From the NCBI GenBank assembly GCA_016192135.1, contig JACPUR010000029.1:1-7791 (forward strand): a stretch of DNA of 7,791 bases, given 5' to 3'. Within the stretch, counting starts at the first letter, position 1. The number at the start of each line of letters is the position of its first letter. The notes below the pieces were generated by a model. It saw nothing but the letters and a program-made list of their open reading frames with translations. It searched no databases and was not told the DNA's origin. This DNA comes from Candidatus Tectomicrobia bacterium (GTDB taxonomy: Bacteria; UBA8248). A program made the position numbers and the translations under genes. Of the stretch, positions 6,627 to 7,791 are shown piece after piece.

Positions 6627-6728
6627 GCACCCCTCTCCCTCCGGGAAAGGGGGATGGGGGTGAGGGAAAAGCTGCGAGCGCTGGAGAATCCTCCCTCACC
6701 CCGGCCCTCTCCCAAAGGGAGAGGGTGC
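6627..6728. repeat. Paired inverted repeat of REP/MITE type between PASTA gene and rpe
   Basis: Left arm 6627-6666 and right arm 6693-6728 are imperfect reverse complements of each other over nearly their whole length, separated by 26 bases. Both arms begin, read inward, with GCACCC and end with GGGTGAGGG. Each arm also folds on itself: CCCTCTCCC (6705-6713) and GGGAGAGGG (6717-6725) form a perfect 9-bp stem with loop AAA, and 6630-6639 pairs with 6643-6652 at 9 of 10 positions. CCCTCACCCC...CCCTCTCCC/GGGAGAGGG sequences of this kind are, from memory, dispersed intergenic repeats in several high-GC bacteria. No T-run follows, so it is not a standard intrinsic terminator, though it may protect or end the upstream message. 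Confidence 0.75.
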
Positions 6729-6771
6729 AGAGCCTGCCGCCCGGGTGAGCGGTCTGTTTAGATTCGTAACT

Positions 6772-6782: not shown

Positions 6783-7736
6783 TTGCCGAAGCCCGACATG
6801 ACGAGGGGGAAGATCCGGATCGCGCCCTCGCTGCTCGCCTGCAGGTTCGAGCGGATGGGGGAGGAGATCGAAGCCGTCCGACGGGCGGGAGCCGACTGGC
6901 TCCACTTCGACGTGATGGACGGCCGCTTCGTCCCCAACATATCGGTGGGCCCCATGGGGGTGGCGGCGGCGCGGCGGGTGTCTCCGGATTTCGTGCTGGA
7001 CGTGCACCTCATGATCGCCGACCCGGACCGCTACCTGGAGGATTTCGTCCGGGCGGGGGCCGACCTCGTGACCGTGCACGTCGAGGCCGCCGGCCACCTG
7101 CACCGGACCGTCCAGGCCATCCACGCCCTGGGGGCGCTGGCCGGGGCGACCCTGAACCCCGGCACCCCGCTCTGCGCCCTCGATCCGGTGCTGGGAGACG
7201 TGGACCTGGTGCTCATCATGAGCGTCAACCCGGGCTTCGGGGGGCAGAAGTTCATCCCCTCGGCCCTGGAGCGGGTGCGCGAGGCGAGGCGGATGCTGGA
7301 CGCCCGGAAATCGGGGGCGCTCCTGGAGGTGGACGGCGGGGTGACGGCCGGGAACGCCGCCGCCCTGCGCGAAGCCGGGGCGGACGTGCTGGTGGCGGGC
7401 ACGGCCGTGTTCGGGTCCCCCGACTACGCGGGGGCCATCCGGGAGATACGGGGGGGAGAGATGGATACTGAAAACAACAGATGTCCTGTGTGCCTGGTGG
7501 ATAAACCAAGGATTGAAGGAATCTCCAATAAAGATGCGTACAAGGTGGATTGCCACGGCAAAGGATGCGGACGCTTTTCATATTCTGGACCAGCCAAAAT
7601 AGAGAAACTCAAGAATTTGACATTGGACGAGCGCGAAGTACTGAAGGCTTATATCGTTCGGAAAAATCAAGATGGGATTGAGCCGTGCTTAGATAAAATG
7701 ACTGTTGACGCAATCTTGGCTGGGACCGCTGGCTAG
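6783..7736 (+). CDS. rpe: Ribulose-phosphate 3-epimerase with extra C-terminal Cys-rich domain
   Basis: Residues 1 to about 226 are a complete ribulose-phosphate 3-epimerase, the TIM-barrel metalloenzyme that interconverts ribulose 5-phosphate and xylulose 5-phosphate in the pentose phosphate and Calvin cycles. Visible signatures are IAPSLLA (13-19), LHFDVMDGRFVPNISVGP (40-57, with His41 and Asp43), DVHLM (73-77, His75), SVNPGFGGQKF (147-157), EVDGGV (182-187, Asp184) and the phosphate-binding AGTAVFGSPDY (205-214). All four metal ligands are present. The family is normally about 220 residues, so the enzyme is finished near IREIRGG (219-225). The frame then runs on without a stop for 91 codons into an unrelated Cys-rich segment (entry 7461-7736), giving 317 residues in all. 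The start is TTG at 6783. The 227-base gap before it, with a repeat element, suggests separate transcription, but I see no clear promoter. Confidence 0.93.
   Translation: MPKPDMTRGKIRIAPSLLACRFERMGEEIEAVRRAGADWLHFDVMDGRFVPNISVGPMGVAAARRVSPDFVLDVHLMIADPDRYLEDFVRAGADLVTVHVEAAGHLHRTVQAIHALGALAGATLNPGTPLCALDPVLGDVDLVLIMSVNPGFGGQKFIPSALERVREARRMLDARKSGALLEVDGGVTAGNAAALREAGADVLVAGTAVFGSPDYAGAIREIRGGEMDTENNRCPVCLVDKPRIEGISNKDAYKVDCHGKGCGRFSYSGPAKIEKLKNLTLDEREVLKAYIVRKNQDGIEPCLDKMTVDAILAGTAG
7461..7736 (+). other. Foreign-looking zinc-ribbon-like segment fused in frame to rpe
   Basis: This 91-codon segment begins with its own ATG and reads MDTENNRCPVCLVDKPRI, then YKVDCHGKGCGRFSYSG, then a helical part with LTLDEREVLKAYIVRKN and DGIEPCLDKMTVDAILAG before TAG. 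The pairs CPVC and CHGKGC (Cys 8, 11, 31 and 36 counted from this ATG) look like a treble-clef or zinc-ribbon site. From memory the layout (CPxC, then VDCxxCGxF, then L...R...I...N..GI.P) resembles N-terminal domains of larger hypothetical and some defence-associated proteins, so this may be the front of such a protein cut by the stop. By hand count only 43 of 91 codons end in G or C, against 213 of 226 in the epimerase part. A GGGGGGAG run just upstream might allow independent translation, but the spacing to the ATG is only two bases. Confidence 0.7.
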
Positions 7737-7791
7737 AACTCAAGATTGTTTCAGTAGGATGAGGGCGCCCAGCTTTCCGGTCACTTCCTCC

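Follow-up and report, generated by a model that had tools for sequence, protein, structure and literature searches.

Why does the gene for ribulose-phosphate 3-epimerase (rpe) in this genome run on, without a stop codon, into a cysteine-rich tail of quite different base composition? The window analyzed here covers contig C29 in full (7791 bases), one of the 41 contigs of a 3.9-Mb genome. Sequence comparisons point to a truncated, horizontally acquired defence-type gene, which probably landed at the junction between rpe and the convergent gene mazF and formed an in-frame fusion with the single rpe copy that was detected.

The open frame and its composition break

The open reading frame at positions 6783-7736 of the plus strand comprises 317 codons without a stop and extends past the expected end of rpe, in agreement with the original observation of a frame that passes through its expected stop into a 91-residue cysteine-rich tail. 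The first part of this frame (6783-7460, plus strand) is a complete rpe gene. Its translation matches the NCBIfam model TIGR01163 with an E-value of 1.5e-83 over residues 13-223, and the score of 279.3 bits (curated cut-off 212.6), with positions 2-211 of the 211 in the profile aligned, identifies a full-length epimerase. Searches of the same genome detected one copy of rpe in an assembly that is 96.77% complete.

The second part of the frame (7461-7736, plus strand) is a 91-codon tail in frame with rpe, which opens with a likely native ATG codon and carries an N-terminal zinc-ribbon module recognized by a 28-member profile. Codons ending in G or C make up 213 of 226 before position 7461 and 43 of 91 after it, and a recount returned identical numbers (Fisher p = 6e-20). 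The drop is therefore real, but its placement exactly at the ATG codon was slightly too precise, since the best statistical change-point lies at 7446 (within 15 bases of 7461) and the edge based on sister genomes at 7456-7459.

Two further features were observed elsewhere in the window. A transposase fragment on the minus strand (1-624; rve / Mu-type DDE_2) runs off the left contig end and is single-copy in the assembly. Upstream of rpe, positions 6633-6740 contain a dispersed inverted repeat (CCCTCTCCCTCC ... GGGAGAGGGTG), the right part of which recurs at more than 20 further sites of the genome.

The zinc-ribbon module and its family

Four cysteines lie near the start of the tail in a CPxC...CxxxxCG pattern, with a fifth at residue 76. 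The 91 residues gave no match to Pfam, NCBIfam, PHROGs or PDB sequences, and a PADLOC match to Cas8b was discarded (E-value 0.015). The entry point to the family was a weak search of 386 genomes, which provided one real relative (L047) at the front of a TIR-domain protein. Plasmids were searched with an approximate consensus as the seed query; this query served as a lead only, and every member tested is a real sequence. The plasmid members found with it are fused to DUF4145 or to a Ymh/HEPN domain, and profile searches revealed further members from many lineages. Several candidates were rejected, including L043 (a spurious overlap with a gene on the opposite strand), L042, L044-L046 and L048-L050 (without the shared cysteine pattern), and L083-L086 (chance matches or unrelated zinc ribbons).

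The profile used to score the tail was built from 28 independent real members, some of them weak (for example L082), with L083-L086 excluded and the tail itself left out. It scored the tail at 36.0 bits over residues 4-87, whereas the best of 20,000 shuffled controls reached 15.2 bits and the best of 20,000 controls with fixed cysteines 20.0 bits. The zinc-ribbon-like character proposed for the tail was thus borne out by the profile test. C8, C11, C31 and C36 align with the metal-ligand cysteines of the family, the second pair being spaced by four residues as against two in the family. The tail may bind zinc. A single-sequence AlphaFold2 model suggested two strands followed by helices with low confidence (pLDDT 53.9); the fold models (pLDDT 54 and 38) were too poor for structure searching.

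Members of this family share a common plan of four conserved cysteines near the start and a helical stretch, followed in nearly all of them by a second domain and an effector-like domain. The module precedes TIR, DUF4145/HEPN, Ymh/HEPN, CAP12-TIR, Nuc_deoxyrib_tr-like and AAA domains, and nearly all intact members have 216-576 residues. An earlier study (PMC3710099) lists fusions of zinc ribbons in conflict systems, with DUF4145 and related HEPN domains as the partners. The family is sporadic in the sampled genomes (a few per cent or less), as expected for genes that are moved horizontally. On a Ciceribacter plasmid (L064:1965-2264), a shortened module is found beside a transposase of the IS3 family and downstream of a gene with a TIR domain, representing another truncated copy.

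The genome studied here also encodes a full-length member of 311 residues on contig C16 (L087:1486-2421; G000:C16:81962-82186), which combines the zinc ribbon with a C-terminal Nuc_deoxyrib_tr-like domain. It is located in a patch of about 1 kb with 46-49% GC between flanks of 72-75%. Since this gene occupies a low-GC patch of its own, the lineage has probably acquired genes of this class at least twice.

Compared with its relatives, the tail corresponds to the first module only, which is complete at about 90 residues, and the frame stops where the second domain of the members starts. After the stop codon (7734-7736) there is only the 3' end of mazF, with no second or effector domain, and the tail is therefore not a whole member of the family. 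One could argue instead that the 91 codons are an entire gene in their own right, encoding a small zinc-ribbon protein such as a regulator or antitoxin, and that this gene was acquired whole and is fused to rpe only incidentally. Its product would start at position 7461, with an upstream run of G as the ribosome binding site and with transcription from rpe. The ATG codon at 7461 aligns with the native starts of other members and the module is complete; moreover, rhizobial plasmid frames of 76-77 residues (L065 and L066) end at about the same point as the tail, and a short stand-alone form is therefore possible. The right end of the insert also contains an imperfect hairpin across the stop codon (7702-7757), weakly supported by its folding energy (-18.8 kcal/mol; z -2.45 relative to dinucleotide-shuffled sequences) and a possible shared terminator of the two convergent genes. 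However, almost all other members are multidomain proteins, a close stand-alone relative was not found, and in L064 the same module is a truncated leftover beside the transposase. We consider the whole acquisition of a small gene unlikely, and favor the 5' fragment of a longer defence-type gene.

The rpe/mazF junction in sister genomes

In the two sister genomes of the same genus (G001 and G002), rpe ends with a TAG codon and is followed by a GC-rich spacer of about 100 bp and the convergent mazF. The sister sequence at the end of rpe is CGGGGGGAGTAG, after which come the spacer and the mazF end, whereas the sequence here is CGGGGGGGAGAGATGG... and continues into a segment of 44.5% GC up to position 7757. 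Alignment with both sisters, together with GC content, delimits this foreign low-GC segment to 7459-7757. Its left edge falls at 7456-7459, with about 3 bases of uncertainty, the low GC content extends beyond the stop codon to about 7757, and homology to the sister locus is back from 7758 onward on the same contig. Because the spacer is gone and homology resumes at 7758, the segment represents a replacement, which has taken both gene ends. The proposed insertion that removed the rpe stop and produced an in-frame fusion is thus supported, although strictly about 100 bp were replaced by about 300 bp. Apart from the contig overlap described below, the foreign segment is single-copy in its own genome.

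The 3' end of mazF occupies positions 7740-7791 of the minus strand, and the remainder of the gene is found on contig C2 (L009:90-446, minus strand). Its identity was established by sister alignment, a match to PemK_toxin (E-value 7.1e-26) and a score above the cut-off of the MazF equivalog model. The C-terminus of MazF is ..SALIGS-stop in the sisters and ..GALILLKQS-stop here, with the stop codon now at 7740-7742, and the last codons (LLKQS-stop, 7740-7757) come from the insert. On contig C2, mazF (minus strand) is followed by a likely antitoxin frame, ffh and a rimM-trmD-rplS run, the gene names other than MazF being taken from translations. Across the family, ffh comes after rpe at every fetched locus that contains both genes; the G001 locus reaches ffh, and the G002 contig ends before it. 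In this genus, the gap between rpe and ffh holds mazF (minus strand) and an antitoxin-like frame upstream of it, several other genera of the family have a spacing of only about 130 bp, and one genus has longer repeat-like spacers.

The position of the rpe stop in sister genomes had been proposed as a check, and we extended the comparison to 15 relatives from the family in which the end of rpe is complete. All 15 stop within 0-2 residues of the expected end of rpe here, and none has the tail. At 29 rpe loci in other genomes, the frame runs at most 17 residues beyond the aligned rpe end, and a search of the remaining 17 genomes of the phylum did not turn up the 91-residue tail. As the outgroups and all 15 relatives keep the stop at this place, its loss is derived in this genome. 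These data also bear on the idea that the fusion is under selection, with the zinc ribbon regulating or localizing the epimerase or coupling it to stress. Such a role would be compatible with 91 open codons and four intact ribbon cysteines, and the presence of the tail on the only detected rpe copy means that the cell must tolerate it. Its restriction to a single genome and the lack of any comparable tail at the 29 other loci make a maintained function highly improbable. The fusion probably arose by a recent accident and does not represent a new working enzyme; selection most likely does not maintain any role of the module here, and the tail would have little or no effect on the epimerase.

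The left junction is located in a G-rich, Shine-Dalgarno-like stretch (CGGGGGGGAG), which makes joining through a short shared sequence plausible. A run of seven G at this junction (7450-7456, plus strand) has six G in the sisters and could act as a Shine-Dalgarno-like site for the ATG codon at 7461. The frame depends on the length of this run, with a stop after 272 codons for six G, 317 for seven and 229 for eight.

Both junctions are present within one contig, and the right one is found again in contig C2, which makes an assembly join unlikely. The suggestion of such a join at 7461 was not supported, since syntenic sister homology resumes beyond the insert in the same contig. An artefact of assembly or binning would have brought unrelated sequences together at about 7461 in a genome that is indeed fragmented (41 contigs), and the contig ends 330 bases further on in a manner resembling a branch of the assembly graph. 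There, positions 7651-7791 form an exact 141-bp overlap, by sequence identity, with the start of contig C2 (an assembly-graph node), which appears to be the trace of a k=141 assembly graph. However, in such a graph k-mers must support the junction itself, and the sole repeat at the join is the 7-base G run. In addition, the right flank is the expected syntenic mazF on the same contig and on C2, leading to ffh, and a false join would need to exit and return at the orthologous position. An artefact is thus extremely unlikely, and the sequence evidence argues strongly that the rpe/mazF junctions are genuine.

Origin of the fusion and comparison with known systems

We propose that a piece of AT-richer foreign DNA took the place of the spacer between rpe and mazF in this lineage. 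It would have brought with it the 5' portion of a defence-type gene, with the start codon and the complete zinc-ribbon module and without the second domain or the effector. This swap would have taken away the rpe stop and supplied the new C-terminus of MazF. By chance the reading frames coincide, so that translation would continue from rpe into the module, and the predicted product is a 317-residue Rpe-zinc-ribbon protein, should it be translated and folded as expected; initiation at the ATG codon at 7461 may in addition yield a separate product of 91 residues. It is highly improbable that Rpe, in a single step, was recruited to carry a zinc ribbon that senses infection or nucleic acids, creating a sensor-coupled enzyme with MazF remodelled in the same event.

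Some points count against the truncated-gene origin that we favor, namely the short rhizobial frames, the low confidence of the fold prediction, the dependence of the in-frame join on one G-run length, and the failure to find the donor. The donor was sought in phage and plasmid collections, which gave no match, and in genome and viral collections, which gave no convincing match; single-sequence searches of phages, plasmids, viral contigs and genome contigs returned nothing or chance matches. The ends of the insert contain an imperfect 12-base inverted repeat, TACTGAAA(A)CAA (7466-7477 and 7745-7756), which was reached by 11 of 5000 shuffles, the repeat having been picked after it was seen. They could be the ends of a mobile element, but are treated as a lead only because the left copy falls inside what is probably native coding sequence. 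No attC core of an integron gene cassette was seen by eye at the insert ends, nor was there a clear target duplication of the kind left by a small insertion sequence.

With the sister genomes as a reference, this locus is a clear case of foreign DNA between convergent genes rewriting both protein ends at once, and it illustrates how central enzymes can gain new fused domains before selection comes into play. It further draws attention to a zinc-ribbon module that begins many bacterial defence-type proteins and is sporadic yet spread over a broad phylogenetic range, for which no model of its own matched in the libraries searched.

The tail resembles the ZnR-TIR, ZnR-CAP12 TIR/PDC-S35, ZnR-DUF4145 HEPN and ZnR-Ymh HEPN proteins in its CPxC...CxxCG pattern, in the helical part that follows and in length. 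In these defence-type proteins the module is at the protein start, whereas here it stands behind an epimerase; the cysteines of its second pair are four residues apart (CHGKGC) rather than two, and it is without the second or effector domain. L087 shares with the tail the module, N-terminal in L087, and the location in a low-GC patch, but it is an intact multidomain protein on contig C16 and its module is only about 24% identical. The epimerase domain is complete both in the TIGR01163 epimerases and in the fusion, whereas a C-terminal tail of 91 residues is present in no relative examined. In the zinc-ribbon fusions listed in part of PMC3710099 the partners are HEPN domains, whereas here the partner is a metabolic enzyme.
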